Below are positions 11,813 to 31,142 of a stretch of 36,800 nt of DNA, one piece after another; the first letter of the stretch is position 1, and each line of letters begins with the position of its first letter. The stretch lies in contig JAUZOM010000019.1 of assembly GCA_030706465.1 (NCBI GenBank), positions 1 through 36,800 on the forward strand, read 5' to 3'. Below the pieces are notes generated by a model, which saw only the letters and a list, made by a program, of their open reading frames with translations, searched no databases and was not told where the DNA came from. A program made the position numbers and the translations under genes. The stretch is from Bacteroidota bacterium (GTDB lineage Bacteria > Bacteroidota > Bacteroidia > Bacteroidales > Paludibacteraceae).

Positions 11813-12044
11813 TAAGAGGCGGTTATGTTATGTTTTATTACAATAATTACTACCTCCTTATTTAGTTCCGGCTTGTCCGGGTTAGGAAACTAGTCGCTAT
11901 ATGGAATGTCTTGTTATGGAACCGGATAAGCTGGTTCGATCTGCTTTTTTTAAAGAATATTTTTCCTGACAACTGTCATACCAATTTCATACCGTTGTTG
12001 TACTCCTGCAATATTCCTGCTGTTACTTTGTAATAAAAAAGAAG

Positions 12045-12905
12045 ATGTACAATCAAAAGTTTTATCCCACCATTGTAATTTCCGATGTCCACCTTGGAAC
12101 CGAATACTCCAAGACCCGGGAATTGGCCGATTTTCTAAAGACGGTGAACTGCAATACCCTTATCCTGAATGGCGACATCATTGATGGCTGGCATATCCAA
12201 AAAGGCGGCAAGGGAAGATGGAAGAAGGAACATACCGATTTCTTCAAGATCATTATGAAAATGATGGAAAACCATAATACAAAAGTCATTTATGTCCGCG
12301 GGAATCATGATGATTTTATCGATTACATAGCCCCGTTGTCCTTTGCCAATATCTCCATTGTAAAGGACTATGTTCATGAGAGGCTTGGCAAACGCTATTA
12401 CGTCGTGCACGGCGACATATTCGATAACGTGACTTCCCGGATGGTTTGGCTGGCCAGGTTAGGTGATGTCGGTTATTCATTTTTGCTTTGGGTAAACAGG
12501 ATATACAATATCCGGCGCTCGAAGAAAGGACTACCTTATTATTCCCTTTCGCAGAGCATAAAGCAGAAAGTCAAATCGGCTGTATCGTATATCTCCAACT
12601 TCGAAGAAGAGCTTGTTTCATTGGCCAGGACACGCCATGCCGACGGGATTATCTGCGGGCATATCCACCAGCCTGCCGACCGGATGATGGATGGCATTCA
12701 CTATCTCAATTCGGGAGATTGGGTGGAAAGCATGTCTGCCTTACTGGAGCATGAAGATGGAACCTGGGAGGTGTACCGGCACAATAATCAGCTATTAAAA
12801 GCGGAAATGGAAGCGGAATCGGAACCGGGATATAGCCATGTTGAATCTTCCGGGAAAGGACTTCGGGTAGCATTTGCCAACAATTTCTTTAATCCTTTTT
12901 TCTAA
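12045..12905 (+). CDS. COG2908/LpxH-like metallophosphoesterase (putative UDP-2,3-diacylglucosamine diphosphatase family)
   Basis: A 286-residue soluble protein with a complete calcineurin-like metal site: DVHLG (Asp14, His16), GDIIDGW (Asp44), RGNHDD (Asn87, His88), VHGD (His122) and GHIHQP (His206, His208). Family members hydrolyse the pyrophosphate of UDP-2,3-diacylglucosamine in lipid A synthesis, but many in this broad COG2908 group are annotated by similarity only, so I leave the symbol blank. There is no signal peptide, which suits a cytosolic or inner-membrane-associated enzyme. A near-consensus -7 motif (TTACTTTG) lies at 12023-12030. A glycosyltransferase follows 209 bp downstream on the same strand, which suggests that the pair works on a glycolipid (inference). 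Confidence 0.87.
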   Translation: MYNQKFYPTIVISDVHLGTEYSKTRELADFLKTVNCNTLILNGDIIDGWHIQKGGKGRWKKEHTDFFKIIMKMMENHNTKVIYVRGNHDDFIDYIAPLSFANISIVKDYVHERLGKRYYVVHGDIFDNVTSRMVWLARLGDVGYSFLLWVNRIYNIRRSKKGLPYYSLSQSIKQKVKSAVSYISNFEEELVSLARTRHADGIICGHIHQPADRMMDGIHYLNSGDWVESMSALLEHEDGTWEVYRHNNQLLKAEMEAESEPGYSHVESSGKGLRVAFANNFFNPFF

Positions 12906-12907
12906 GT

Positions 12908-13097
12908 ATACTTTACCAAAATAAAGAACGAACCACAATAGACACAATAGAAATAATGTTTTCAGTCATCTTCCTGAATTGACAATTTTAAAATGCCGAT
13001 CGATATTTTTTTAGTGTGTTCTTTTTTATTTTGTTTTTGTGTCCTATTGTGACTATTGTGGTTTGAATTAGTTGTGTTTTTTAATTTAGTAAAGTAG
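12908..13097. repeat. Inverted-repeat (MITE-like) intergenic element
   Basis: The left arm AACCACAATAGACACAATAG (12931-12950) is matched by the inverse CTATTGTGACTATTGTGGTT at 13044-13063, 19 of 20 positions. Each arm is itself a near-tandem of a CACAATAG unit. Outside the arms a second, weaker inverted match occurs (CTTTACCAAA at 12911 against TTTAGTAAAG near 13086). The AT-rich centre carries no gene. The structure resembles a miniature inverted-repeat element; no target-site duplication was established. Confidence 0.65.
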
Positions 13098-13114
13098 AAC
13101 TAAATATCGGTTCA

Positions 13115-14218
13115 ATGAAATATTTATTTGTAATACAAGGTGAGGGAAGGGGCCATTTTACACAGGCCCTGAGTTTGAAAGCTATGCTCGAACGTGATGG
13201 TCACGAGGTGGTGGCAGTAATGGTCGGCGGAAGTGCCAAACGTACCTTGCCTGTTTTCTTTGCGCAAAAGATAAGCAGCGAAATCATTCAGTTTCAAAGT
13301 CCTAATTTTTTGCCGACTCCCAAAGGAAAGCACTCCCCCCTGTTAACCAGCATCCTGTACAACCTGTTGCTGTTGCCGGTTTATATGCACAGCCTGCTGA
13401 CAATACGCCGAACAATTCGCAACCACCAACCCGACGTGGTGATAAACTTTTATGAATTGTTGTGCGGCTTTACCTATGGATTGTTTAATCCGGAGCCGCC
13501 CATGATCAATGTGGCTCATCAGTATTATTTCCTGACCCCCGCTTTCCAGTATACCGGGAAGGATAAAGGCCGGTTCGGGTTGCTGAATTTTTACTCAAGG
13601 CTTACGGCCCTGAACTCGACGAAGATACTCGCACTTTCTTTCCGCCCGGATGCTGATTTTCAACAAGGGAAAATAGTGATTGTTCCACCCCTGCTGCGTC
13701 AGGAAGTCCTGCAACAGGAAGTAACCGATGGGGATTATATTCACGGCTATATGCTGAATAGCGGTTTTGCCTCCGAACTGGCAACCTGGAGTGAAAATCA
13801 TCCCCAACAGCCTCTTCGTTTCTTCTGGGATAAAAAAAAAGCCAACGAAACCGAAAAGCTAACGCCTTCACTCACCCTTCATAGACTGAGCGATACGCTT
13901 TTTCTGCGGACTATGGCGGGCTGCAAAGCCTATGCCACTACCGGTGGATTTGAATCGGTCTGCGAAGCGATGTATCTGCAAAAAGCCGTACTGATGGTAC
14001 CCACCCATATTGAGCAGGAATGCAATGTAATGGATGCACTTCGCTCGGGGGCCGGAGTGGCTGGGACCGAATTTAACCTGGACTTGTTGCTCGATTTTAT
14101 TCCAACCTATCGCAAATCCAGGGAGTTCAACTACTGGGTTCGCCAGGCTGGGTCCCTGTTTTTGTCCGAATTAACCGGAATTGAGTGTGAAGGCTCCGAA
14201 GCGGTTGCCTTGCTGTAA
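13115..14218 (+). CDS. GT-B fold glycosyltransferase (MurG/MJ1255-like)
   Basis: A 367-residue protein beginning MKYLFVIQGEGRGHFTQAL, the glycine-rich first strand and loop typical of GT-B glycosyltransferases of the MurG/MGD type; the call GEGRGHFTQA is close to the MJ1255-like family. In the C-terminal half, ATTGGFESVCEAMYLQKAVL followed by PTHIEQECNVMDALRSGAGV matches the nucleotide-sugar-binding segment (Gly-Gly, Glu and the His-Glu-Gln region). There is no signal peptide and only a short hydrophobic stretch (LLTSILYNLLLLPVYMHSLL, about 76-95) that may touch the membrane. The donor and acceptor are unknown. It follows the LpxH-like phosphoesterase, which points to glycolipid or surface-glycan synthesis (inference). 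A strong terminator follows the stop codon. Confidence 0.8.
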   Translation: MKYLFVIQGEGRGHFTQALSLKAMLERDGHEVVAVMVGGSAKRTLPVFFAQKISSEIIQFQSPNFLPTPKGKHSPLLTSILYNLLLLPVYMHSLLTIRRTIRNHQPDVVINFYELLCGFTYGLFNPEPPMINVAHQYYFLTPAFQYTGKDKGRFGLLNFYSRLTALNSTKILALSFRPDADFQQGKIVIVPPLLRQEVLQQEVTDGDYIHGYMLNSGFASELATWSENHPQQPLRFFWDKKKANETEKLTPSLTLHRLSDTLFLRTMAGCKAYATTGGFESVCEAMYLQKAVLMVPTHIEQECNVMDALRSGAGVAGTEFNLDLLLDFIPTYRKSREFNYWVRQAGSLFLSELTGIECEGSEAVALL

Positions 14219-14259
14219 CAAATTTCTTTAATTTTGTTTATTCTTCTTTTTAATTGCGG

Positions 14260-14290
14260 AAGCTGCCTTTTTGTAAAGGCAGCTTTTTTT
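14260..14290 (+). terminator. Intrinsic terminator after the glycosyltransferase gene
   Basis: A perfect 11-bp stem (AAGCTGCCTTT and AAAGGCAGCTT) closes a 4-nt loop and is followed by a run of T. It lies about 40 bp after the stop codon at 14218. Confidence 0.9.
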
Positions 14291-14620
14291 AGAGAACGGG
14301 GTTGAATTCTTACACTTTTTAATTCTACATCCTGGGATGCACTAATTTAAACTTATAAAAAAGATGGTTTTGCCGGATAGCTTGAGGAAGATCGATCATT
14401 CTACTATTAAAGGTCTATGGAATTGGATATTTTATTATCAGCGTCCTCTTTCGGGCGAATATTCCATTCAGCCCATTCGTTGAATGACTCGTAAATTATT
14501 CTTTTTCAAGTCCTTTATATATTATTCTTTTAATCCCGGGTATGGCTCCGCCGACACAATGCTTCCTCGAATCCCTTCCATTGCTTATTCTTAGCGTAGA
14601 GTTACTTTGTTGAGGGTTCA

Positions 14621-14706
14621 GTTAGGGTTCAGATAGGGTTCGGTTAGGGTTTAGATAGGGTTCGGTTAGGTAAACCTATCTGAACCCTAACCGAACCCTA
14701 TCTAAA
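14621..14706. repeat. 22-bp tandem repeat merging into a 68-nt imperfect palindrome
   Basis: Two 22-bp units, GTTAGGGTTCAGATAGGG plus TTCG and the same with one C to T change (14621-14642 and 14643-14664), are followed by a partial third. From there the sequence turns back on itself around AGGTAAACCT (14668-14677). The right arm carries inverted copies of the same words (ACCCTAACCGAACCCTATCT). The stem has a few mismatches and wobble pairs. The TTAGGG words recall telomere repeats, but only by chance in this context. Confidence 0.75.
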
Positions 14707-14707
14707 G

Positions 14708-14748
14708 TCTTTCCAATTTCGCTTTATACCTAAAACGGAAGTATATTA
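14708..14748 (+). repeat. Dispersed 41-bp intergenic module, copy 2
   Basis: Begins TCTTTCCAATTTCG, continues CTTTATACCTAAAACGGA and ends AGTATATTA. It abuts the palindrome at 14639-14706, just as copy 1 lies next to the palindrome at 9025-9066. Confidence 0.7.
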
Positions 14749-15031
14749 AGCTACGTCAGAGGAAGGCTAAAGAAACAAAGAACAAAGATCATGATCCCCT
14801 TTTTCTTTCGTTCATCACCGGTTAATGGTTAGAAGAAAACGAAATGATAGATAGAACGAAATACAAGGAAAAAGGTAGAGAAAAATAGAAAATGATAAAC
14901 TGAAAATGACAGAGGGGTTGCTCCTTGGTTTTGGGCATTTTTAATCCGGTCGGCCGGGCCCGGCAAAACAGAACATTTGGAGTATAAGGAATGTTATAAT
15001 TGTTTTACATTGAATAAATTAGAATGTAGTT

Positions 15032-15523
15032 ATGAACAGGTTGGAATTAGTAAGAACTGAGATTGATTCTATTTTATTGAATCAGGAAAATGTGAATGTG
15101 CGCCCGGAAGGATATATCCATTTGTACGGGGTGGCCCAGAATTGTACGCTGCTGGCTGTTAAAAGGGGACTCGATGTTGAACTATGTACGATCATTGGTT
15201 TATTGCACGATATCTATACTTACAAATATGAGTATGTGAAAGACCATGCGCTGTTGGGAGCTGTTGAAGCGGAAAACCTGTTGAGGGACCTGGAGATTTT
15301 CACCGATGAAGAAATAGAAATTGTGCGCAATGCTATCAGCCATCATAGTGATAAGAAAACAAAGCACGATAAATACAGTGAATTGATAACGGATGCCGAT
15401 CTGTTGCATAACTCACTCTATATGGCTTCATTCGAGATCAAGCACCGGAAAAGGTTAAAGAAGATATTGAAGGGCTTGGGGATAAAGATAAAACTGAAGA
15501 AATTCAACGAAGAAAACGACTAA
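15032..15523 (+). CDS. HD-domain phosphohydrolase-like protein
   Basis: A 163-residue soluble protein with an HD-type metal site: His30 (GYIHLYGVAQ), His59-Asp60 in GLLHDIYTY and a late aspartate in ITDADLLHN (Asp121 or Asp123); HH at 104-105 may also bind metal. HD proteins hydrolyse phosphate bonds in nucleotides or related compounds; the substrate here cannot be told. The C-terminus is rich in lysine (KHRKRLKKILKGLGIKIKLK). A CHAD-domain gene follows after 35 bp on the same strand and is probably co-transcribed. The pairing suggests a role in polyphosphate or nucleotide phosphate metabolism (inference). Confidence 0.8.
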   Translation: MNRLELVRTEIDSILLNQENVNVRPEGYIHLYGVAQNCTLLAVKRGLDVELCTIIGLLHDIYTYKYEYVKDHALLGAVEAENLLRDLEIFTDEEIEIVRNAISHHSDKKTKHDKYSELITDADLLHNSLYMASFEIKHRKRLKKILKGLGIKIKLKKFNEEND

Positions 15524-15558
15524 AGGAATAAGTAAACAGGTTACAATAAAAAAATAAG

Positions 15559-16317
15559 GTGATGAACCAACTTGTCAAAAAATATAATTCATTTGTCCGG
15601 GGATATCGTGAAATCGAGAAAGAGACAACGGAAAATGAAATACACGATAAAAGAGTCACCCTGAGGCGTATTTTCCCGATCCTGGCTGCCTATAGGATAA
15701 AACCGTCGAAGGTAAAAAACGGGGAAGAGGCCTTTCATCTTTTCGGGAAGCTGCGTGACGTTCAGGTTCAGCGATTGAAGTTGGAGCGTATCGACCGGAC
15801 TCCGGAAATAACGGAATATCTTGTATTTTTAAAGAAACGGGAGTTAAAGCTTCAGGGAAAGGTGCGAAAATTCTGCAACAGGAAAAAACTGAAATTCCCT
15901 GTTTTAAAAAAAAAGTCGGACATTGATAACCTGAGGATTGTGGATAAAGCCGGCAAAATGCTCAACAAACTCATTGCCAGGATGCATTCGGGAAGCATTG
16001 ATGATGCCCGGGATATCCACAAAATAAGAATAGAGTTTAAGAAATTCAGGTATGTAGTCGAGATTCTGTCGTATATTGAAAATATTGATGAAGCGAAGCT
16101 GGAAGAAATGAAACTCTATCAGGATCGGCTTGGTGAGATACATGACTATGAGGTGTTGATGGATGGAATCAGAAAGTATTTCAGAAAAGGGAAGCCGAAT
16201 GCGGAAGAAATCATCGAACAGTTTGAAAAAGAACAGGACCGTCTGATTGTGGGCTTTGAGAATGACATAGAAGCTTGCATTGTCCTTTGCCGCGAGGTAC
16301 TCATAAAGAAGGGATAG
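15559..16317 (+). CDS. CHAD-domain protein (candidate polyphosphate binder)
   Basis: A 252-residue all-helical, very basic protein with the two conserved half-repeats of CHAD domains: EIHDKRVTLRRIFPI (His29, Arg32, Arg36, Arg37) and DIHKIRIEFKKFRYVVE (His154, Arg157, Lys161, Lys162, Arg164), each followed by a helical hairpin. A closing LGEIHDYEVL segment (191-200) matches the usual LGDLHD motif. CHAD domains bind polyphosphate through these basic residues and often localise to polyphosphate granules. Unlike many relatives there is no fused CYTH/thiamine-triphosphatase domain. It follows the HD gene closely and ends before a strong terminator, so HD-CHAD looks like a two-gene operon. Confidence 0.88.
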   Translation: MMNQLVKKYNSFVRGYREIEKETTENEIHDKRVTLRRIFPILAAYRIKPSKVKNGEEAFHLFGKLRDVQVQRLKLERIDRTPEITEYLVFLKKRELKLQGKVRKFCNRKKLKFPVLKKKSDIDNLRIVDKAGKMLNKLIARMHSGSIDDARDIHKIRIEFKKFRYVVEILSYIENIDEAKLEEMKLYQDRLGEIHDYEVLMDGIRKYFRKGKPNAEEIIEQFEKEQDRLIVGFENDIEACIVLCREVLIKKG

Positions 16318-16340
16318 TACGGTTTTTATATATCTTTTTT

Positions 16341-16384
16341 GCCTAAACCCATATTCGTGATCAATATGGGTTTAGGCATTTTTT
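16341..16384 (+). terminator. Intrinsic terminator after the HD-CHAD operon
   Basis: A perfect 15-bp stem (GCCTAAACCCATATT and AATATGGGTTTAGGC) with a 7-nt loop is followed by ATTTTTT. It begins 24 bp after the CHAD stop codon. Confidence 0.93.
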
Positions 16385-16622
16385 GTAGCTGTTTTCTCCA
16401 ATATACAAGGAAATATAATTCAAAAACCGGACAATTTAGTTCCTGAGAATAGAGCTTTGTCTAATCGGTTAAAATCATATAAATACCGGGAAACGAATTA
16501 TCGCAACTCCTGATTTCCTTCATTCATAATTCTTTCCGGTTGAATTTAATAATTGTAATATAAATATAATACAGATAGCGGGCATTTAATAGATCTGAAA
16601 TCTATCTGAAACAACTTAATTC

Positions 16623-16630
16623 TACTTTTG
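16623..16630 (+). promoter_or_regulatory. Candidate -7 promoter element for the TonB-receptor cluster
   Basis: TACTTTTG is an exact TAnnTTTG match 21 bp before the receptor start codon. This would leave a leader of only about 15 nt. It is the only good promoter match seen upstream of the four-gene run. Confidence 0.5.
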
Positions 16631-16651
16631 CCACATATATAAACAGGCAGA

Positions 16652-19444
16652 ATGAAGATCTATTTTTACGTTATTGTATTGTTATTTAGTTCACTAAATT
16701 CGTATGGCGGAATTATACAAGGAATTATTAAAGATAGCAAGTCGAATGAAATCCTGATTGGGGCTACCGTGAATATAAAGGAATTAAAATTAGCCATGAT
16801 GACAGGATTGGATGGATCGTTTCGGTTTAAGCAAATACCGCGGGGTAATTATACGTTACAGATTTCCTATGTCGGGTATACTACTATCGAGGAAGAAATT
16901 AATACCCGTGAGTCGGAAAAGGCAGGTCATGCACTGGAAGTTCTTCTTGATCCGGTACAGACCAGGTTAAAAGAGGTAGTGGTATCAGCTCATGGAGATA
17001 AGAGTACGGATGTAAGTGCCAGGACAACTGAGCGCGAAAGTCCTAATCTAATGAATGTAGTAAGTGCCAAAACCATTGAGTTGTCTCCGGATGTGGATGT
17101 TGCAAGTGTTGTCCAACGTATGTCAGGTGTAACGCTCGATAAAAGTTCTTCAGGAAGCGGGGAATATGCTATACTCCGCGGCATGGACAAACGATATAGC
17201 TATACGCTTATAAACGGCATTAAAATGCCTAGCACAAATGATCAACAACGCTACACTTCCCTTGATATTTTTCCTTCCGACCTGGTGGACCGTGTTGAAG
17301 TATCAAAAGTATTGACCCCTGACATGGAAGGCGATGCCATAGCCGGAGCCGTTAACATGTCTATGAAGAATGCTCCTGACCACTTCCTGTTGAAAGCAAA
17401 TGCTGCAATCGGATACAACGCAATATGGGAAGAGAATAAATTTATGACTTTCAATTACCCGATCATAAATTCCCAATCACCGTATGAGTTGAACGGCAAG
17501 ACCTACCAGGCACTCTCACCGGACTTTACCAAATCGAACTTAGACCCGTCTACACTGGCTGTTCCGCTAAACAGATCAGCCGGGTTAACTATCGGAAACC
17601 GGTTTCTGGGGAAAAGATTGGGGTGGATATTGGCAGCCAGTTATAATAACACTTACAAAGGTACACAGAGTCTGATCTTTGGGGAAGACCAGTCGACAGA
17701 TGGGAAGAATCTACCGATACTATCCTCTATGAAACAACGGTTTGATTATAACCATCAACAAAATTACGGCATTCACAATAAGTTTGATGTTACCATTTCA
17801 CCGCATCACTCAATTCATCTTTACCTGGCCTATATGAATTTTGAGTTAATCCAGATCAGGGATGAGGAATCTACCGAATTAGGGAATAACAGTTATGATC
17901 CGGAGCATGGGAGTAAAAATGTTACCCAGTCCGAAAGGAACCGCCTGAATGTTCAGACCTTGTTTAATGCGACCTTACAGGGTAATCATAGTTTAGGCCC
18001 CAAATTCTCAATCCAGTGGAGTGCCGTCTATTCTGTTGCTACAAACCGTACTCCCGATATGTCGACAGTCTCGTACGATAGGACCTATGTAAATTATACA
18101 CTGCAACCCCAATATGTCGATTTTGGGGGAAGCGACCGGCTTTGGTTACATAATTCGGATGCCGATAAAGCAGGTTATCTTAATTTTAAATATAGAACAC
18201 CTGCTTTGTGGGGCAAATTTGAGTTCTCAGCCGGTGGTTTGTACCGCGATAAGACCCGTTCAAGTTTCTACAACGATTATACTTTAATACCCCGGGGACC
18301 GGTTGATGAACATTCGGCAAAAGGGGTGGACTGGAATCGCTATTCGGACATAAACTGGTCGGTCCAGGATCCTCTGGGAGCTGTTAATACCCCGGGAACT
18401 TTTACAGCTTATGAAAAAGAAAGAGCCGGCTACGGAATGTTTCAATACACTATTGCTAAAATCCGGGTTATTGGCGGAGCGCGATACGAGAATTCATACC
18501 AGGGATATGATGAGGTATTCCACAGTGCATTTTTAGATAAGTACAAACCCGGGAACAACCAGAAAAGAGATCACCGGAATGATTATTTACTGCCCAGTAT
18601 CAATTTCGAGTATAATATTAATAATCAAAACAATCTCAAAGCGTCTTATTATACCGCAATAAATAAGCCCGGATTTCTAGAGATAGTTCCATATCTGGAT
18701 AATACGGGCGATTATCCGAAAACGGGTAATCCCGATCTAAAAAATGCAGTGGCATATAACTATGATGTCCGGTATGAATTTTTCCCCAACCAATTGGATC
18801 AGGCTCTGGCCGGAATCTTTTACAAGAAGATGAATAATGCTATTGAAGAGGGTTTTATGACCGACGGTCATGGAAATTACAACCTTTCCTTTTCTAATTC
18901 CAATGCGGTAAATTATGGTTTTGAGGCCGATGTTATTAAATACTTTAGTGAGTTTGGCTTTAAAGCAAATTATACCTGGACACATTCGCGAACAAGCTCT
19001 TTCAAAAGGAGTCAGGTAAATGGCGTCCTGAATAATGATTCCACGGTAAGCAGCCTACAATATCGTCCTTTATGCGGACAAGCCGAGCACGTCGGGAATA
19101 TATCCCTCCTTTATAAAGGAGCCTCCAATGGATATAATGCGCAATTAGCCTTATCCTATACCGGCGACCGGATTTATAAGGTATCACCGGATATAAACGG
19201 GGATTTATGGCAGAAAGGTTTTTTACAGATGGATTTATCAGCCGAAAAGAAATTTAAATCCGGCATAGGGATATATATCAAAGCCCGAAACCTGCTGAAT
19301 ACCCATGTAAATGTGTATCTCAAGGAAGCAAATTCCACTAACAGTCAGTTTCCCTGCCATAGTGTTTCCGATAAAACGACGGCACTACGCGATGAATATT
19401 CGGACCCATCTTATTTGATTGGACTCAGATACAATTTCAGGTAA
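16652..19444 (+). CDS. TonB-dependent outer membrane receptor (not SusC type)
   Basis: A 930-residue protein with a signal peptide (about 1-19). It has a carboxypeptidase-regulatory-like domain (about 21-100: IIQGIIKDSKSNEILIGATV, ISYVGY), a TonB plug (about 120-238) and a C-terminal barrel ending in Phe-Arg (LIGLRYNFR). In the plug, LRGMDKRYSYTLINGIKMPS and DIFPSDLVDRVEVSKVLTPD are the typical motifs of a receptor rather than of SusC, and there is no SusD partner. Such receptors import a metal complex, vitamin, peptide or organophosphate. The ligand is unknown. The downstream propeller and acid phosphatase raise the idea of phosphorus uptake (inference). It is followed after 50 bp by the T9SS protein on the same strand. 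Confidence 0.93.
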   Translation: MKIYFYVIVLLFSSLNSYGGIIQGIIKDSKSNEILIGATVNIKELKLAMMTGLDGSFRFKQIPRGNYTLQISYVGYTTIEEEINTRESEKAGHALEVLLDPVQTRLKEVVVSAHGDKSTDVSARTTERESPNLMNVVSAKTIELSPDVDVASVVQRMSGVTLDKSSSGSGEYAILRGMDKRYSYTLINGIKMPSTNDQQRYTSLDIFPSDLVDRVEVSKVLTPDMEGDAIAGAVNMSMKNAPDHFLLKANAAIGYNAIWEENKFMTFNYPIINSQSPYELNGKTYQALSPDFTKSNLDPSTLAVPLNRSAGLTIGNRFLGKRLGWILAASYNNTYKGTQSLIFGEDQSTDGKNLPILSSMKQRFDYNHQQNYGIHNKFDVTISPHHSIHLYLAYMNFELIQIRDEESTELGNNSYDPEHGSKNVTQSERNRLNVQTLFNATLQGNHSLGPKFSIQWSAVYSVATNRTPDMSTVSYDRTYVNYTLQPQYVDFGGSDRLWLHNSDADKAGYLNFKYRTPALWGKFEFSAGGLYRDKTRSSFYNDYTLIPRGPVDEHSAKGVDWNRYSDINWSVQDPLGAVNTPGTFTAYEKERAGYGMFQYTIAKIRVIGGARYENSYQGYDEVFHSAFLDKYKPGNNQKRDHRNDYLLPSINFEYNINNQNNLKASYYTAINKPGFLEIVPYLDNTGDYPKTGNPDLKNAVAYNYDVRYEFFPNQLDQALAGIFYKKMNNAIEEGFMTDGHGNYNLSFSNSNAVNYGFEADVIKYFSEFGFKANYTWTHSRTSSFKRSQVNGVLNNDSTVSSLQYRPLCGQAEHVGNISLLYKGASNGYNAQLALSYTGDRIYKVSPDINGDLWQKGFLQMDLSAEKKFKSGIGIYIKARNLLNTHVNVYLKEANSTNSQFPCHSVSDKTTALRDEYSDPSYLIGLRYNFR

Positions 19445-19494
19445 CAACATCGATTTAGATTTTAATGAAAAGAACAATTTAAAATTTCAAACAA

Positions 19495-21045
19495 ATGAAA
19501 ACAAGTACTTCAAAAATGAGTTTGCTTTTAGTTATCGGTATGCTACTGGTAACATTCTCTGGTTTTGCAACAAACATTACGGTCGGCACCAAAGGCGGTA
19601 ATGGGGGAGTTGAGGTTAGCGGCACCTGGTCGGCCGGCTCTACGGTAACTGTCTATGACCACATGATTATCCCGGCCGGCCAGTCATTAACAATACAAGA
19701 AGGGGTGAATGTTCAGATAGCTGACACGACTCTGAAGATTGAAATGATTGTTCTGGGTAACTTATATTGCAAGGGAACAGCAGCAAACCCGATTAATATT
19801 ACTGTCCAACCCAATTTAGTTCCATCGACCGTATCAACCACCAGACCCTTTCCAGGTTTATGGGGAAGCATTATTTGCGATGCCACTTGTGAAGAGCTGT
19901 TAATGCTTCATACGAACATTAAGTATTACGGGGCAGCCACAACCAATAACTCTCCATCCGTCATGTTGCATTTATATAAAAATTTATCCGGACAAACAGA
20001 GCCCTACATGAATTTCCGGAATAATGTTAATGGTAAATTAGTAATTGAGTATTGTACTTTCAGTAATGGTATGGATGACGGTATTTATATCGAAGGAGGC
20101 AATGTGATTTATGCATACAATACGCTCTATCAAAATGGATTATCCGGAGGGGATGCCACTAATTTGAAGGCGGGAACCGTAGCTGATTTGGGCTATAATA
20201 TGTATTACAGTCCGAATACCAATGCTTTTAAACTGTCGAATAGCGGATCCCGCTCGCCTCAATGTAATGTTGTTGTATATAACAACACGATTGTCAATGC
20301 GGGTTGGAGAAGGCCTACCGTTAAAGGAGGCAGTATATGGTACGAAGCAGGCGTGGTTGCCAAAACATATAATACACTTTTTGTGAATGATCGTTTTGGT
20401 ATCAAATGCGATGGAACTCAGGATCCAGCCTGTGATGCCGACTATAATTTCTATTATGGATATGGACAAAACTGCGTGAATAATTTCAATGCCCCTACAA
20501 AAGGATTATTCCCCAATGGAGCACATGATATTTATGGTTCTACAGCCGGATCGAATGATCCTCTGTTTGTGAATTACGCCCTATCGACCGATACAATGAA
20601 CTCAAAGCTTGATCCTGCCTGGGATTTCCATTTGAGAGCCGGGTCACCAACAATTGGTGCCGGGACTACCAACATAACCCGCCATTTTGGAACAAGTGGA
20701 TCCGGAATAACAATTGCAGGCGTTGAATACTTATCTCCTGAGCCGTCCACGACTATCGGCGCTTTCGGTATAGAAACGAATGCAGGTCTTATTTCTACAC
20801 AAGAAAGTCGATTTGAAGTTTATCCAAATCCGGTTATTGAGCATCTAAACATCAAATTAAATTCGAATTCTAAAGCTACCAGGGTTCAGGTTTATTCATT
20901 ACTTGGATCGAGAGTCTTTGATGAAGCTGTCCCGGAAGGTTTGGAAACAATAAGCTTACCGGTTGCAAATCTAAGTAACGGAATTTATTATGTTTCTGTA
21001 AAAGAGGGTGCTGATTACAGTGTCCGGAGATTTATCAAAGAATAA
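19495..21045 (+). CDS. Secreted beta-helix-like protein with T9SS C-terminal sorting domain
   Basis: A 516-residue protein with a signal peptide (about 1-26) and a body rich in short beta repeats and Asn/Gly turns (AGQSLTIQEGVNVQIADTTL, VIEYCTFSNGMDDGIYIEGG, VYNNTIVN), which fits a right-handed parallel beta-helix. The last 80 residues (FEVYPNPVIEHLNIKLNS to RRFIKE) form a type A T9SS sorting domain, so it should be secreted and anchored at the cell surface. No catalytic motif is evident and no Asp cluster of a pectate lyase stands out. It lies 50 bp after the TonB receptor and 90 bp before the propeller gene. It may be a surface binding or capture protein for the receptor's ligand (inference). 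Confidence 0.85.
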   Translation: MKTSTSKMSLLLVIGMLLVTFSGFATNITVGTKGGNGGVEVSGTWSAGSTVTVYDHMIIPAGQSLTIQEGVNVQIADTTLKIEMIVLGNLYCKGTAANPINITVQPNLVPSTVSTTRPFPGLWGSIICDATCEELLMLHTNIKYYGAATTNNSPSVMLHLYKNLSGQTEPYMNFRNNVNGKLVIEYCTFSNGMDDGIYIEGGNVIYAYNTLYQNGLSGGDATNLKAGTVADLGYNMYYSPNTNAFKLSNSGSRSPQCNVVVYNNTIVNAGWRRPTVKGGSIWYEAGVVAKTYNTLFVNDRFGIKCDGTQDPACDADYNFYYGYGQNCVNNFNAPTKGLFPNGAHDIYGSTAGSNDPLFVNYALSTDTMNSKLDPAWDFHLRAGSPTIGAGTTNITRHFGTSGSGITIAGVEYLSPEPSTTIGAFGIETNAGLISTQESRFEVYPNPVIEHLNIKLNSNSKATRVQVYSLLGSRVFDEAVPEGLETISLPVANLSNGIYYVSVKEGADYSVRRFIKE

Positions 21046-21135
21046 TTGGGTCGTCTTTTTCGCTGGCAGATTGCTGTTCAGCAGGAGGTAGACCTTTACC
21101 AACAAGAAAGCTTGTATAGTTAACGATTGAAATAA

Positions 21136-22149
21136 ATGAAGAAAATAACAATATTCACGATTGCCTTACTTACGGTTTGTTCGGTTTATTCAGGAGCCGT
21201 ATCAACCGGAAGCTATAAGGTCGTACATAAAATAAGCGTGGAAGGCAATGAAAAGTGGGATTATCTTTTCTCCGACGATCAGGCGGGGCGGCTCTACGTA
21301 TCGCATGGAAGTCAGGTACAGGTGATTGATGAGGTTAGCAGGGAGGCCGTAGGTAAGATCACCGGGTTGAAAGGAGTTCATGGCATTGCCATTGCTCCGG
21401 GATGGAACAAAGGATTTATTAGCAGCGGGAAGGATTCTTCCGTAACGATATTCGATACCAATACCTTAGAGGTTATCAAAAGGGTTGTCGTAACGGGAAT
21501 TAGTCCCGATGCTATTCTTTTCGATGCATTCAGCCAAAAGGTCTTTGTATGTAACGGACATTCGAACAACATGACCGTGATCGATGCTGCAACCAATGAA
21601 ATCGTTTCAACAATTGCTTTAACGGGGAATCCGGAGTTTTCTGTTACGAATGGGAAAGGGATGATTTATATAAACCTTGAAAGTGCCAGCAGCATTGCAG
21701 TTATTAATGCTTCCACGTTTGAAGTGGTAAATGTCTGGCCTATTGCACCGGGAGCTGAACCAACCGGGTTGGCATTGGATAATGAGACTCACCGGTTGTT
21801 CTGCGCATGTACCAATAAACTCATGATGGTGGTCGATGCAGAAACAGGGAAAGTCATCTCAGGTCTTCCTATCGGTGATAAGACCGATGGTGCCGGATTC
21901 GATCCTTTCCTGAAATGTGCTTACAGCTCTAACGGGGATGAAACAATGACGGTAGTGAAAGAAGACGACAATGACCAATACCGTGTGTTGGAAAATGTAA
22001 AAACACAGACAGGGGCACGTACAATAGCCGTAAACAGGGGCACGCATCACCTGTATTTACCGGCCGCCGATTTTGAACCGGCAACTGACGGGCATAAAGG
22101 GAAGATGATTCCCGGAACGTTTGTTATTCTGGAGATTGCTCCGGAGTGA
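21136..22149 (+). CDS. YncE-like secreted beta-propeller protein
   Basis: A 337-residue protein with a signal peptide (about 1-20) and seven-bladed-propeller repeats of the YncE/NHL type, each carrying a v-i-D-x-x-t-x-e-v pattern: VQVIDEVSREAVGKITGLKG, VTIFDTNTLEVIKRVVV, MTVIDAATNEIVSTIALT, IAVINASTFEVVNVWPI, MMVVDAETGKVISGLPI. No enzyme motif is visible. Propellers of this type are often found with TonB receptors and may bind a ligand or hand it on. It lies between the T9SS protein and the phosphatase on the same strand. The family is clear, the function is not. Confidence 0.88.
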   Translation: MKKITIFTIALLTVCSVYSGAVSTGSYKVVHKISVEGNEKWDYLFSDDQAGRLYVSHGSQVQVIDEVSREAVGKITGLKGVHGIAIAPGWNKGFISSGKDSSVTIFDTNTLEVIKRVVVTGISPDAILFDAFSQKVFVCNGHSNNMTVIDAATNEIVSTIALTGNPEFSVTNGKGMIYINLESASSIAVINASTFEVVNVWPIAPGAEPTGLALDNETHRLFCACTNKLMMVVDAETGKVISGLPIGDKTDGAGFDPFLKCAYSSNGDETMTVVKEDDNDQYRVLENVKTQTGARTIAVNRGTHHLYLPAADFEPATDGHKGKMIPGTFVILEIAPE

Positions 22150-22259
22150 TCGGATAAATATATTTTTAAAGTCAGGTTGATAGTAACACCTCAGGCAGGC
22201 AAGTGAAAGCACAAGTCAAGGGTGTTATTCATCTTTATTCAAATAAAAAATTCAAATCA

Positions 22260-23231
22260 ATGAAAAAAAACAGATTTATTATAGTAGTGTTCGTTGCTGT
22301 CTTCTCCGTGATATCTTTTGCAGCAACACAAAAAAAAACAAAACCCGAAAATCAGAAAAACGATCTAGCAGTCAAGAGCGACAAGAAAGCATTGAATTTT
22401 TTTGTTATCAGCGACTGGGGCTGGAATGGATTCAAGGACCAACAAATAGTAGCGGACCAGATGGGATTACAAGCCGATAAAATTCATCCGCAATTCATTG
22501 TTTCCTGTGGCGATAACTTTCAGGTAGCCGGAGTGGCCTCTACACAAGATCCGCTTTGGACGAATAGTTTTGAAAACGTATATAAGAGTTTATCGTTGAT
22601 GGTCGATTGGTATCCTGTATTGGGGAATCATGACTACAAAGGCAATACCCAGGCCGAAATAGACTATTCCCATATCAGCCGCAGATGGCGAATGAAAGAT
22701 CATTATTATACCTTTGCGCGGAAAATCAATGATTCTATTTCCGCCCGTTTTATATTTTTGGACACCCCTCCTCTCGTTGAAGAATACCACAAAGGAAACG
22801 GCTATCCTGATGTCGCAGTACAGGATACGGCCAAACAAATCCAATGGCTCAATGATGTATTGGCCAACTCAACCGAACAGTGGAAGCTGGTCTTTGGACA
22901 CCATCCTGTTTACTCAGCCAGCAAAACACATGGCAATACCCCTGAAATGATCCAAAAAGTGAAGCCATTGCTTGAAAAGTACCATGCTCAGTTTTATTTC
23001 TGCGGTCATGACCACGACTTTCAGCACTTACGCGAAAAAGGGAAGGATGTGGATTATGTAGTGACCGGCACGGGGGGTGAACCCAGACCATGTTCTATGG
23101 ATGAACATTCGATCTACAGTCATTCTGCAGCAGGCTTTTCGGAAGTTACTTTCCATGCTGATAGTATACGCGTAATTTTTATGGGTGCTAGCGGTGAAGC
23201 TCAATATGCCATTGAACGGGCTTACAGATAA
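22260..23231 (+). CDS. Secreted metallophosphoesterase, acid-phosphatase-like
   Basis: A 323-residue protein whose metal site is complete: SDWGW (Asp52), CGDNF (Asp85, Asn86), LGNHDY (123-126), FGHHPVYS (His214, His215) and CGHDHDFQHL (His250, His252). The order and spacing resemble tartrate-resistant (purple) acid phosphatases. I start at the ATG at 22260 because it gives a clean signal peptide (MKKNRFIIVVFVAVFSVISF); an in-frame GTG at 22203 would add 19 residues before it. A basic linker with several lysines (TQKKTKPENQKNDL) precedes the domain. It probably releases phosphate from an organic phosphate in the periplasm. It is the last gene of the receptor cluster, and a shared bidirectional terminator follows. 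Confidence 0.9.
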   Translation: MKKNRFIIVVFVAVFSVISFAATQKKTKPENQKNDLAVKSDKKALNFFVISDWGWNGFKDQQIVADQMGLQADKIHPQFIVSCGDNFQVAGVASTQDPLWTNSFENVYKSLSLMVDWYPVLGNHDYKGNTQAEIDYSHISRRWRMKDHYYTFARKINDSISARFIFLDTPPLVEEYHKGNGYPDVAVQDTAKQIQWLNDVLANSTEQWKLVFGHHPVYSASKTHGNTPEMIQKVKPLLEKYHAQFYFCGHDHDFQHLREKGKDVDYVVTGTGGEPRPCSMDEHSIYSHSAAGFSEVTFHADSIRVIFMGASGEAQYAIERAYR

Positions 23232-23368
23232 ATAAAATGTAAAAGATTTAGAACAATCGTATTGTTGAGATTCTTTTACTAACAAACAGGTATTGAATGC
23301 AAATAGTCAAATGTTCTTTTAATCATGTAAAAAAAAATTTGCGGGTGTGTAATCTCCTTGATGAAAAT

Positions 23369-23405
23369 AAAAGAGAGGTTGTTTGTTACAGGCAACCTCT
23401 CTTTT
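23369..23405. terminator. Bidirectional terminator between convergent genes
   Basis: A 13-bp perfect stem (AAAAGAGAGGTTG and CAACCTCTCTTTT) with an 11-nt loop lies between the acid phosphatase (plus) and the patatin (minus). Its right arm overlaps the patatin stop codon. The A-rich and T-rich flanks on each side suit both directions. Confidence 0.85.
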
Positions 23406-25692
23406 ATTCCGTAAATTTGGGGTTGAAAAGTAAGATTCCGATATTCAGTCCGACGTTCCAGTGGTCTGTATTGTAGTTTGCGAAAAGACCGGCAGAAGCC
23501 AGCCTGAAATTATATACCAACGCTGTTTCGTATATAAACCGGGATGTGGAAAACGGAGCTGAATACGTGGCTGAATTGTCGGGAGCACGCCTGAAGGTTT
23601 GATAGGGAACAAACCAATAGGCTTCCCCGCGCAGGTGAAGTTGATCGGTTATATGATACACGGGTTTTAACCCAAAGGCAACAAACTGATTGGCGCTGAA
23701 TGCTTCATTAAAGACAGTCCTGCTGTAAGGGGTCGGTTGAAAGGCGGGAGCTTGTATCAGTGTGATTGTGTAATTATGCAATAATTCCCGGGTGGAATAT
23801 TCCAATTCGCCATAAGTACCCACTGTAAAGCGGGAAGAGATGCGGAAATACCGATCAAACCGGACGCAATATTGCATCCATAAATCCGCTTTCTTCGCCA
23901 AGCTGACAGATGTTGGATTTGCCGGGTTGAAATCCTCTTTCCCATTAAATAATTGAATGGATGCTGAATAATTAAACCCTTTAGTCGGATACATGACGTT
24001 ATTCAACGTGTTACTTTCAATCCGGCTAAACAGATTAGCCATTGAAAATGTACTTTTATCATTTTCGATGGTTGGGTTAAAAAGGATACCGCTTTGATTG
24101 TAAAAGTCGGTCAGCATGCCATACCCAACCCCCAGTTCCATTCGGCCTTTCCTGGTGAGCGGAACCCCAACGCTTAGTTTACTGTAAACTTCGTTCAGAC
24201 TGAAGTTCGCCGTTCGGTCATTCTCATAAAATAAACTGTTCCCTGTAAAATAATCAAACCGATGCATGATAAGGGCCAATTTTAGATATACCTCTTTTTG
24301 AGAGGGTATATCTATACGCGTCCCAACTCCCAACCCATTATAAAACTTGCCGAACTGAGCATCTATCCAGACAGTCTGGGCACAATCCGTCAGGTTCTGA
24401 AACATGAATCCCAGATACGCCTGATTGGATATGCCGGAGGAGATATTCCCTCCCAACATTACTTTCAGTTGCTCTGCTGTTTTTACATTCAGATTCAGAT
24501 CAAACAGCCCGGTGGCGGAATTATAAACTGCATGGGGGATGACTTCCGAAATTTTATCATCCGAAATCAATTTAAAATAAGATTGTTTGAATTTATTCGA
24601 ACTAAACACGTTCTTTTTAAGCTGGAATGTTCGTTTTATGTATTGCTTTTGCAGGCTGTCAACTCCGGTTACTTCAACATGTTGGAATTTTAGCTCAGGA
24701 AATCTATTCCGGAAGTCTTTTCGCCGTTGGCTGATTTCTTCAGCAGTAACCCGCCGGGTGACCTTGGCCTTGATTTTATCCAACTGTTTCATAACCGAAT
24801 CATAACCCATTTGAACCAGTTCATCCACCCTGGAGAAATCGAAGACGTTTATTTTTTCGAGATTAAATTTGAGCAACAACCCATCTGAAGAAGGAAGTGA
24901 ATAATCGGTACGGGTAATAATCATATTCTGAAGTTGCATCAAGAGGTCATTTTCATCTGCCTTGGGCGGATTATAAGCGACAACACTACCGATGATATAA
25001 TCGGGCTTATAATCGTTAATCATGATGTCTACCGGAAAATTATTGAAGATACCCCCATCAAATAATAACTTATTATCAATGCTGATAGGTTTGAACACAA
25101 AGGGGTACGTCATGGATGCGCGAATGGCATCGCCCAATACACCACGACGAAATACAACCGCTTGTTTGTTATAAACATCCGAGGCGACACAGCGGAATGG
25201 AACCATCAATTTATCAAAGTCCCCTCCCGCAGCAGCATTGGCTTGGGCACATAAAGGCACGAAAGCATAATTTATCTGACCCGGAGGAACAAAATTTGTT
25301 GGCAAAAACCGGGTCTTGAAATTAATGGATTTCTGCTTGTTAATCTGAATACGCAAATCAATTATTCGGGGTTTCGGATCGGAATATCGATAATAATAGA
25401 TATCTTCCGGTTCAACTTCTCCAGACATCCAGTTTTTAAAATCGTTCGATTTAATGAGCCTGATCATTTCATCAGGTGTCATTCCCATAGCATACATGCC
25501 CCCCACAATAGCTCCTATGGAAGTTCCGGCAATATAATCAATCGGGATATGATTTTCTTCCAGGGCTTTAATAATTCCAATATGTGCCATTCCCGGAGCT
25601 CCGCCACCACTTAAAACAAGACCGATTTTCTGAGCATTTAAACATGAAATGATACTCATCCAACCGATTATCATCAATATTGTTTTCTTCAT
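23404..25692 (-). CDS. Patatin-like phospholipase fused to a BamA-type outer membrane barrel (PlpD-like)
   Basis: A 762-residue protein with a signal peptide (about 1-20). The patatin domain (about 22-260) has the oxyanion-hole motif [11 protein letters not shown], the nucleophile Ser58 in GTSIG and the catalytic Asp212 in FDGGIFNN, so the Ser-Asp dyad is intact. A POTRA-like stretch follows (about 340-410), with the C-terminal half consisting of amphipathic beta strands of a BamA-type barrel (about 415-762). This is the layout of type Vd autotransporter-like patatins such as PlpD, which place a phospholipase A1 at the cell surface; in Bacteroidetes the domain may instead stay periplasmic. 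It begins 75 bp downstream of the response regulator on the same strand and may be under its control. Confidence 0.93.
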
Positions 25693-25767
25693 TTAATCTC
25701 TTTCGTTTAACCGGGGAGAATTACCGTTTTTTATTTTGTTAGTGTGCTTAATAAAAAGAGGACGGCT

Positions 25768-26451
25768 TTATCCTTCAAAGCAATACCCCAATCCAATCTT
25801 CGTAACAATATTTCTCCCGTAGGGGCCAATTTTTTTACGTATCCGTGTAATGCTTACATCGACGGTCCGATTCAGCACATATGATTCTTCCGGCCAAACC
25901 AGGGTGAGTAAATCTTTTCGTGTAAACAACTGGTTTGTGTTTTCGATGAAAAGCTTAAGTATTTCAAACTCTTTCCTGGTGAATTTGATTTCATCCCCAT
26001 CCAGCATCACTTGTTTATTTGTCAGGTTCATGTGGAGTTTGTCGTATGAAACCTGATTGTTGACAGGTGTTTCTTTTGTGTTTATCCGGTGAATTACAGC
26101 ATTTATCCTGGCAACCAATTCCCTGAGAGAGAAAGGTTTGGTGATATAATCATCAGCCCCCAGGTTAAAACCCGTCAAACGATCGTTTTCATTGTCTCTG
26201 CCCGTCAAAAAAATAATGGGGATAGTCTCGGTTTCCGGGTCGTTGCGGATCATGTGAGCCATTTTAAACCCTGAAATTTTGCCCAATGCCACTTCCAGCA
26301 ACAATAAGTTATAAGCGTGAATATTTTTCGTAAAGGCTTCTTCTGCCGAATAGGCCACATTAACCAGATAGCCTTCATTTGTCAGGTTGAAGCGAAGGAT
26401 TTCACACATATCTTCTTCTGCATCGACCACCAAAATATGATACTTATTCAT
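25768..26451 (-). CDS. OmpR/PhoB-type response regulator with Glu in place of the phosphoacceptor Asp
   Basis: A 227-residue protein with a receiver domain (about 1-122) and a winged-helix DNA-binding domain (about 135-227: FTRKEFEILKLFIEN, TVDVSITRIRKKIGP). In the receiver the switch Thr83 (FLTGRD) and the conserved Lys105 (YITKPFS) are present. The phosphoacceptor position is Glu53 (LLLLEVALG) instead of Asp, and the acidic pocket reads VDAEED, so one of its two acidic residues is Ala11. The codon is GAA at 26293-26295. A Glu here often mimics the phosphorylated state, so this regulator may be active without a kinase (inference). No histidine kinase gene is near. The patatin gene follows after 75 bp on the same strand. 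Confidence 0.92.
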   Translation of the reverse strand: MNKYHILVVDAEEDMCEILRFNLTNEGYLVNVAYSAEEAFTKNIHAYNLLLLEVALGKISGFKMAHMIRNDPETETIPIIFLTGRDNENDRLTGFNLGADDYITKPFSLRELVARINAVIHRINTKETPVNNQVSYDKLHMNLTNKQVMLDGDEIKFTRKEFEILKLFIENTNQLFTRKDLLTLVWPEESYVLNRTVDVSITRIRKKIGPYGRNIVTKIGLGYCFEG

Positions 26452-26476: not shown

Positions 26477-26484
26477 CAAAATTA
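26477..26484 (-). promoter_or_regulatory. Candidate -7 promoter element for the response regulator-patatin pair
   Basis: The minus strand reads TAATTTTG, an exact TAnnTTTG match 25 bp before the regulator start. The implied leader is about 20 nt. Confidence 0.5.
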
Positions 26485-26640
26485 CAAAGCACATATTACG
26501 GCGTTGTGTGATTTCTATGACAAAATTATGTCTTTGTTTAGTTGGTCTGGAAAAGGTGTGCTAGGGCAATACTCCCCTCATTCCCGAACATTTCCCCGTT
26601 TTTTAGCACTCTCTGATTCTCCAGCCAGCCTTCTCCGAAA

Positions 26641-30827: not shown

Positions 30828-31142
30828 TTACAATAAAGCCTGAACTTTGCTGGCTAGAACAGACTTTTGAGTGGCACCTACTTGTTTATCTACTAATTGG
30901 CCGTCTTTGAAGAATAGAATGGTTGGAATGTTACGGATGCCATAAGTTTCGGGTGTTTCTATATTATCATCCACATTCATTTTCCCTATTTCAACTTTTC
31001 CTTCGTACTCTTTTGCTAATTCTTCAACTAAAGGTCCAACCATGCGGCAAGGCCCGCACCATTCTGCCCAAAAGTCAATTACTACCGGTTTTCCACTATT
31101 AATAATATCTTTGATGTTTTCATCCGTGAATTCTGCTGTCAT
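30828..31142 (-). CDS. trxA: Thioredoxin
   Basis: A 104-residue cytosolic thioredoxin with the active site WCGPC (Cys29, Cys32) in [13 protein letters not shown] and the cis-proline region [10 protein letters not shown]. Length and order of secondary structure match the standard single-domain protein, with no signal peptide. It reduces protein disulfides such as those of ribonucleotide reductase and peroxiredoxins. It lies 199 bp downstream of dnaE on the same strand, so read-through from dnaE is possible. No clear promoter of its own was found. Confidence 0.97.

Follow-up and report, generated by a model that had tools for sequence, protein, structure and literature searches.

A duplicated PhoB regulator in a Paludibacteraceae genome, probably independent of phosphorylation and governed by its own abundance

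Results

The phoB2 gene and its product

The window, that is, the whole stretch of 36,800 nucleotides that was analysed, contains on its reverse strand (25768-26451) a gene with an ATG start coding for a 227-residue regulator of the OmpR/PhoB type, in which the Pfam scan recognised a receiver (PF00072, 76.1 bits) and a winged-helix DNA-binding domain. The best NCBIfam match of this protein is the equivalog of Bacteroidota PhoB (NF053854), with 316.9 bits against a curated cut-off of 270. The source genome (G000) also encodes a canonical PhoB, 62% identical to the window protein, which has Asp11 and Asp53; the gene next after it reads as a PhoR-type histidine kinase. The window gene is thus a second copy of PhoB, hereafter phoB2, and its product PhoB2.

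Inspection of the codons confirmed the four residues of the receiver pointed out in a sequence-only reading of this DNA, all encoded on the reverse strand: Glu53 (GAA, 26293-26295) at the phosphoacceptor position, Ala11 (GCA, 26419-26421), Thr83 (26203-26205) and Lys105 (26137-26139). Ala11 aligns with D10 of Escherichia coli PhoB, which we take to be a Mg2+-ligand position. The same reading had described the acidic pocket as damaged, which holds in part: of the acidic pair, the second member has become Ala, while D10 (26422-26424) and E12 (26416-26418) stay in place, as does Tyr102. PhoB2 matches the Pfam Response_reg family with Glu in place of the phosphoacceptor Asp, and so belongs to the aspartate-less receivers, or pseudo-receivers. 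It shares with the canonical Bacteroidota PhoB a score above the family cut-off and a DNA-recognition helix that is nearly identical, only a few letters apart in the alignment; however, it lacks both the Mg2+ ligand and the phosphoacceptor, no PhoR gene adjoins it, and a patatin gene does. Given Glu53 and Ala11, it is therefore a PhoB paralogue rather than a phosphate-relay PhoB. The structure model of PhoB2 (mean pLDDT 89.3, pTM 0.55) is uninformative on the state of the receiver, because the Foldseek matches are OmpR/PhoB-type regulators, active and inactive alike.

Genes of the window

A patatin-like phospholipase is encoded 75 bp downstream of phoB2 on the same strand (23404-25692, reverse), and is the probable operon partner of the regulator, judging from this arrangement. 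Two calcineurin-like phosphoesterases are encoded on the forward strand. One of them (12045-12905; PF12850, 43.7 bits) is preceded by a Pho-box-like repeat (11972-11992) and may be PlcP-like, as its Pfam family and its context suggest. The other (22203-23231), assigned by Pfam with the frame taken from position 22254, is by eye probably exported and possibly a phosphatase; its GTG start adds 19 residues ahead of a likelier ATG at 22260. The forward strand also carries a glycosyltransferase gene (PF13528, 13115-14218), a pair of genes for HD-domain and CHAD-domain proteins (15032-16317) and a gene for a TonB-dependent receptor (16652-19444) with a Pho-box-like repeat upstream (16552-16572). Together with a protein carrying a secretion-sorting tail and a weak match to a YncE-like propeller, these two metallophosphoesterases, glycosyltransferase, HD and CHAD proteins, receptor and patatin are encoded in the stretch 12045-26451. 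Outside it, a DUF6377 protein (9436-11127) is encoded near SusC/SusD and cellulase genes and is possibly a regulator of that locus.

The sequence-only reading had found no histidine kinase nearby, and this was borne out: a PhoR query gave no tblastn match in the window at E<=1e-15, and none of the 21 proteins of the window compared with Pfam, which do not include the small ORFs or the thioredoxin-like one at 30828-31142, has a kinase domain.

The response of Flavobacterium johnsoniae to phosphate starvation is reported to include induction of PlcP and of members of a phoBR cluster, namely a TonB transporter, a lipoprotein and a glycosyltransferase (PMC8115612). There PlcP carries pf12850, the family matched by the window gene at 12045, whereas the glycosyltransferase is assigned to pf04101, a different Pfam family from PF13528 of the window enzyme (PMC8115612). 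By this comparison, the window looks like a phosphate-starvation-type gene cluster.

A clade of PhoB2 proteins with an eroded pocket

The PhoB2 protein was searched against 48 genomes of the genus, which gave matches at E<=1e-60 in 46; from these loci 63 distinct PhoB copies were kept for a tree. The PhoB2 paralogue occurs in seven of the 48 genomes, all in one clade (clade I, support 100/99), in which the window protein and the copy of genome G043, 71% identical, are sisters (100/97). When positions 10, 11, 12, 53, 83 and 105 were masked, a 37-row tree recovered the seven-member clade again (100/100). Asp11 and Asp53 are both present in all the other 56 distinct copies of the genus and in 24 of 24 distinct copies read from the same family; this family sample comprised 25 rows, two of them the same gene, from the better-scoring 24 of 63 genomes with a match among 202 same-family genomes searched.

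Within clade I the pocket is altered to different degrees. At positions 11, 53 and 83 the window protein has Ala, Glu and Thr, G043 Asn, Glu and Thr, G040 Pro, Glu and Ser, G013 Asn, Gly and Ala, G037 Gly, Asp and Ser, G002 Asp, Asp and Ser, and G044 Asp, Asp and Thr. Asp53 is accordingly lost in four of the seven copies (to Glu in three, to Gly in one) and Asp11 in five. The masked tree requires at least three changes at position 53 and five at position 11, or three each when only loss and no loss are distinguished, counts made less sure by the uncertain placement of the G040 copy on its long branch (1.73 in the masked tree, 2.94 in the tree of 63 copies). The most altered pocket is that of G013 (L136:3998-4678), yet its frame is open and adjoins a patatin gene; its Gly53 means that Glu at position 53 is not a need common to the clade.

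Conservation of Glu53 and Ala11 among homologues had been raised as a check: Glu53 is present in three of the seven members and Ala11 in the window copy alone. An Asp53 homologue next to a kinase had been named as evidence against a phosphorylation-independent regulator, and on this point the outcome is mixed: one does exist, but it is the canonical paralogue in the same genome. The clade members with Asp53 are those of G002 and G044, with intact pockets, and G037, with Gly11; none of them has PhoR adjoining.

Further orphan copies of PhoB form a second group (clade II) of nine rows, among them L130, L134, L139, L159, L138, L137, L112 and L128, and all nine keep Asp11 and Asp53. No PhoR was seen beside them; genes reading as TonB-receptor-like, glycosyltransferase or patatin are close to several, and part of the group occurs in clusters similar to that around phoB2. 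Union of the two groups in a single clade was not rejected (AU p 0.426). A diverged PhoB copy of genome G007 (L137:4001-4687) has an intact pocket and a changed recognition helix, GTIDRNINQLRKK in place of RTIDVNITRLRKK, and perhaps recognises a new DNA target.

Genomic context of phoB2 in the genus

In six of the seven clade I members, patatin starts 22-79 bases downstream of PhoB2 on the same strand; in the seventh, G043, no patatin is encoded in the 954 bases from PhoB2 to the contig end. Patatin lies within 1 kb of three of the nine clade II copies and of none of the 47 copies outside both clades. PhoR is encoded within 1 kb downstream of none of the seven and none of the nine, and of 39 of the 47; three of the eight misses among the 47 have fewer than 300 bases of downstream sequence, and two of the nine clade II copies have 188 and 1110. 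The suggestion that patatin and PhoB2 occur solely together was rejected, as patatin homologues were found in 32 of the 48 genomes, and 25 of these 32 lack a clade I PhoB2. The G043 gene for PhoB2 lies on the opposite side of the dnaE-dnaN block relative to its placement in the window, with no patatin adjoining, and a patatin homologue elsewhere in that genome appears split over two frames.

With gene names assigned by reading, the canonical phoB stretch of G002 consists of pstS and a porin gene on one strand and pstC, pstA, pstB, phoU, phoB and phoR on the other. PhoB2 is encoded 10.9 kb from PhoR in G040; in the other six genomes its gene and canonical phoB are either on different contigs or separated by some 43 kb or more. 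In G044, where the pocket of PhoB2 is intact, the assembly shows a TAG codon that interrupts canonical phoB. With names again assigned by reading, the genes for PhoB2 and patatin in G040 adjoin glycosyltransferase, phosphoesterase and pst genes; in G037, PhoB2 is encoded near HD, CHAD and PPK2-like genes, the HD and CHAD genes being homologues of those of the window; and in G044 it is encoded near genes reading as PPX and PPK1. Homologues of the window pair formed by the phosphoesterase at 12045 and the glycosyltransferase at 13115 adjoin pst or phoU-phoB-phoR in G002, G037 and G040.

The phoB2 promoter

Upstream of phoB2, on the same strand, lies a Pho-box-like repeat (26503-26535) of three 11-bp units, AAAGACATAAT, TTTGTCATAGA and AATCACACAAC, in the position occupied by the box of canonical phoB. 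Between the repeat and the gene the sequence TAATTTTG (26477-26484, reverse) resembles the Bacteroidota -7 promoter element, whose consensus we take to be TAnnTTTG. The Pho-box motif, TTTGTCATATCTTTGTAACAG, was built on 54 phoB promoters outside clade I, canonical and clade II, of which 46 gave sites.

The best match to this motif starts at -82 to -85 in all seven PhoB2 promoters, compared with 6 of 144 control promoters from the same loci at -81 to -86. Because of their common descent, these seven promoters do not amount to seven separate tests. The match of the window promoter, at -84, scores 8.0 bits, a value reached by none of 500 base shuffles and by 5 of the control promoters, although it is weak beside canonical boxes: among the 54 phoB promoters from outside the clade, the set that trained the motif, 31 have scores of at least 20. 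In the other members the scores are 17.6 (G040), 7.3 (G002), 5.0 (G044), 2.9 (G037), 2.6 (G043) and -1.8 (G013), reached by 0, 5, 8, 9, 17 and 31 of 500 shuffles, respectively; 22 controls reach the lowest of them. As a check of the motif, the four best of the 144 controls read as pstC in two cases and as the porin of the pst stretch in two, and ranks 5-7 are held by the TonB receptor of the window (9.5), the phosphoesterase of G040 (7.9) and the window phosphoesterase at 12045 (7.2).

Among the PhoB2 promoters, identity is modestly higher in the box columns (0.72) than in the flanks (0.62), which ranks 15 of 96 windows, and the site may be partly inherited rather than kept. Over the whole window the number of boxes, taken alone, is not significant (four sites of 10 bits or more, shuffle mean 1.9), so weight is placed only on the position of the box and on the scores of individual promoters.

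Selection on the receiver and the DNA-binding domain

Substitution rates (Nei-Gojobori) were compared between genomes with both copies, six in number, which gives 15 pairs; the broken canonical frame of G044 kept that genome out of the comparison. Of the two canonical copies of G043, the one that groups with that of G000 in the tree (C265) was used. For G000 and G043, the pair with the lowest dS, dN is 0.184 and dS 1.62 for PhoB2 (dN/dS about 0.11), against 0.066 and 1.71 for canonical PhoB, values to be read with the caveat that pairwise dS is near or beyond saturation, and unmeasurably high in many pairs. Separated by domain, dN of this pair is 0.192 for the receiver of PhoB2 and 0.025 for the canonical receiver, a 7.7-fold difference, and 0.158 and 0.105 for the DNA-binding domain, a 1.5-fold difference; this pair is the most extreme of the 15. 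Across all pairs the excess of PhoB2 over canonical PhoB is 3.2 to 7.7 times in the receiver and 1.5 to 3.7 times in the DNA-binding domain. In 14 of the 15 pairs the receiver shows the greater excess; only G000 with G037 departs from this (about 3.4 versus 3.7). The loss of constraint in PhoB2 thus appears to lie mostly in the receiver.

All seven copies have an open reading frame and keep D100, D101, K105, E111 and R115; R91 is present in six (Met in G040), as are R122 (His in G043) and Tyr102 (Phe in G040). Residues of this kind are those that we take to form the alpha4-beta5-alpha5 face. OmpR/PhoB regulators are reported to dimerise through this face (PMC12548384, PMC12632262).

Discussion

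Comparison with known regulators

A close counterpart of PhoB2 is an engineered protein. Ala11 and Glu53 align with D10 and D53 of E. coli K-12 PhoB, and the PDB chain 2jb9 (PhoB-CA) differs from wild-type E. coli PhoB only by Ala10 and Glu53, so that the two substitutions are identical, at aligned positions, in the same protein family. The D10A/D53E form is reported to be constitutively active and to function without phosphorylation (PMC3978041). It differs from PhoB2 in being engineered rather than natural, in being 37% identical to it over the aligned part, and in the residue preceding the changed one, which is Glu9 in E. coli PhoB and Asp10 in PhoB2.

The combination of Ala11 and Glu53 is typical of aspartate-less receivers rather than unique, since Glu is reported to be the commonest replacement of the Asp (26%) and the second acid to be acidic in only 29% (PMC4395418). 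Replacement of Asp by Glu alone is described as often insufficient, and swapping that Glu as having changed little in CmrT and ChxR (PMC12548384, PMC12632262, PMC4395418).

The nearest worked example for the present proposal is CmrT of Clostridioides difficile, an OmpR/PhoB-type regulator with a DGD motif and Glu53, which like PhoB2 has lost the second acid of the DD pair (to Gly) and retains the Thr and Lys. Its authors infer it to be a natural constitutively active case; it is reported to be produced under control of a normal response regulator, and CmrRST is proposed to work by the normal regulator raising the level of the active Glu-type partner (PMC12548384, PMC12632262). CmrT differs in sharing one operon with its kinase and CmrR, whereas PhoB2 is a paralogue of PhoB itself. 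The pseudo-receiver regulators ChxR of Chlamydia and HP1043 of Helicobacter are reported to form dimers without phosphorylation, and ChxR resembles PhoB2 in being of the OmpR/PhoB type with Glu at the phosphoacceptor site. To our knowledge, neither is a recent paralogue of a working PhoB or tied to phosphate. Among the titles and abstract openings listed, a coverage that leaves out most subscription papers, no description of a PhoB paralogue of this kind was found. Glu-type pseudo-receivers are thus already known from CmrT and ChxR, to which PhoB2 adds a graded series within one genus.

Proposed mechanism and its alternatives

PhoB2 probably functions independently of the phosphate signal, with its abundance setting its activity. 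Phosphorylation independence, the core of the sequence-only reading, is well supported by the sequence: neither key acid remains, the sister protein also has Glu53, and the pair is that engineered in E. coli. Control of activity by level, which the same reading had offered as one option, gains some support from the Pho-box-like promoter, nothing was found in favour of its ligand, and as a whole the earlier interpretation is partly supported. The identity as PhoB, the graded erosion within a clade and the phosphate-type gene cluster go beyond it.

We favour, with reasonable though limited confidence, a phosphorylation-independent PhoB whose amount is set by transcription. The observed basis is the sequence, the paralogy, the clade, the erosion of the pocket, the retained recognition helix and dimer residues, the pattern of selection and the position of the box. 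Phosphate starvation would activate PhoR and canonical PhoB, which would then bind the Pho box before phoB2. The duplicated protein would no longer take up phosphate, and Glu53 and Ala11 would hold its receiver in or near the active state, like the D10A/D53E pair of E. coli PhoB. Newly made PhoB2 would dimerise via the retained alpha4-beta5-alpha5 face, bind Pho boxes, and add to or prolong the expression of a gene set that would include the patatin partner and probably nearby phosphate and lipid-remodelling genes.

The main rival, possible but doubtful, is that PhoB2 damps the response, binding Pho boxes or pairing with canonical PhoB but activating poorly, and so limits or splits it. The pocket varies (A/E, N/E, P/E, N/G and G/D at positions 11 and 53) behind a DNA-binding domain and dimer face that are kept, which would suit a competitor indifferent to the letters of its active site; against this, Glu stands at 53 in three of the four copies without Asp, and the pair in the window is a known activating one. 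Gating of a pseudo-receiver by ligand binding, by a partner protein or by some other modification seems unlikely: Pfam finds only the receiver and the winged helix in PhoB2, and the alignment, read by eye, offers no new clade-wide residue pointing to a ligand or redox site. Control by redox and by c-di-GMP is nevertheless known for such proteins (PMC12632262), and the G013 copy, without an acid at 53, must work otherwise if it is functional. The same 2025 review calls the on/off switching of pseudo-receivers a mystery (PMC12632262).

A decaying spare copy on its way to a pseudogene is judged quite unlikely, in spite of the patchy presence in 7 of 48 genomes and of long terminal branches (0.26 for G002, 2.94 for G040 and 0.46 to 0.73 for the remaining five members, with a tree median of 0.15), as all seven frames are open, dN/dS is about 0.11 between G000 and G043 (at a dS of 1.62), and the DNA-binding domain and box position are kept. 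It is highly improbable that Glu53 and Ala11 stem from contamination or from a mistake in sequencing or assembly, which the assembly of 337 contigs with an estimated contamination of 3.05% might suggest. The error at 26293-26295 that had been named as a danger is rejected, because a separate genome, G043, carries the sister protein with Glu53 and Asn11, which makes Glu53 more than chance or a base error; moreover, dnaN and dnaE of the contig share 93% and 87% identity with their G043 counterparts, and the GC content of the window is 0.40, where three stretches elsewhere in the genome give 0.36 to 0.39.

Implications

Under the preferred reading of a PhoB paralogue governed by its dose, clade I brings together unaltered and altered forms of a single regulator from closely related genomes, and E. 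coli PhoB supplies a known engineered counterpart, so that the step from control by phosphorylation to control by dose can be tested with few constructs. Tentatively, the phoB2 duplicate may represent a signalling gene that is leaving phosphorylation with its promoter site kept; if its product is always on and binds its own box, the result would be a self-sustaining loop, a memory of starvation that outlasts the PhoR signal.
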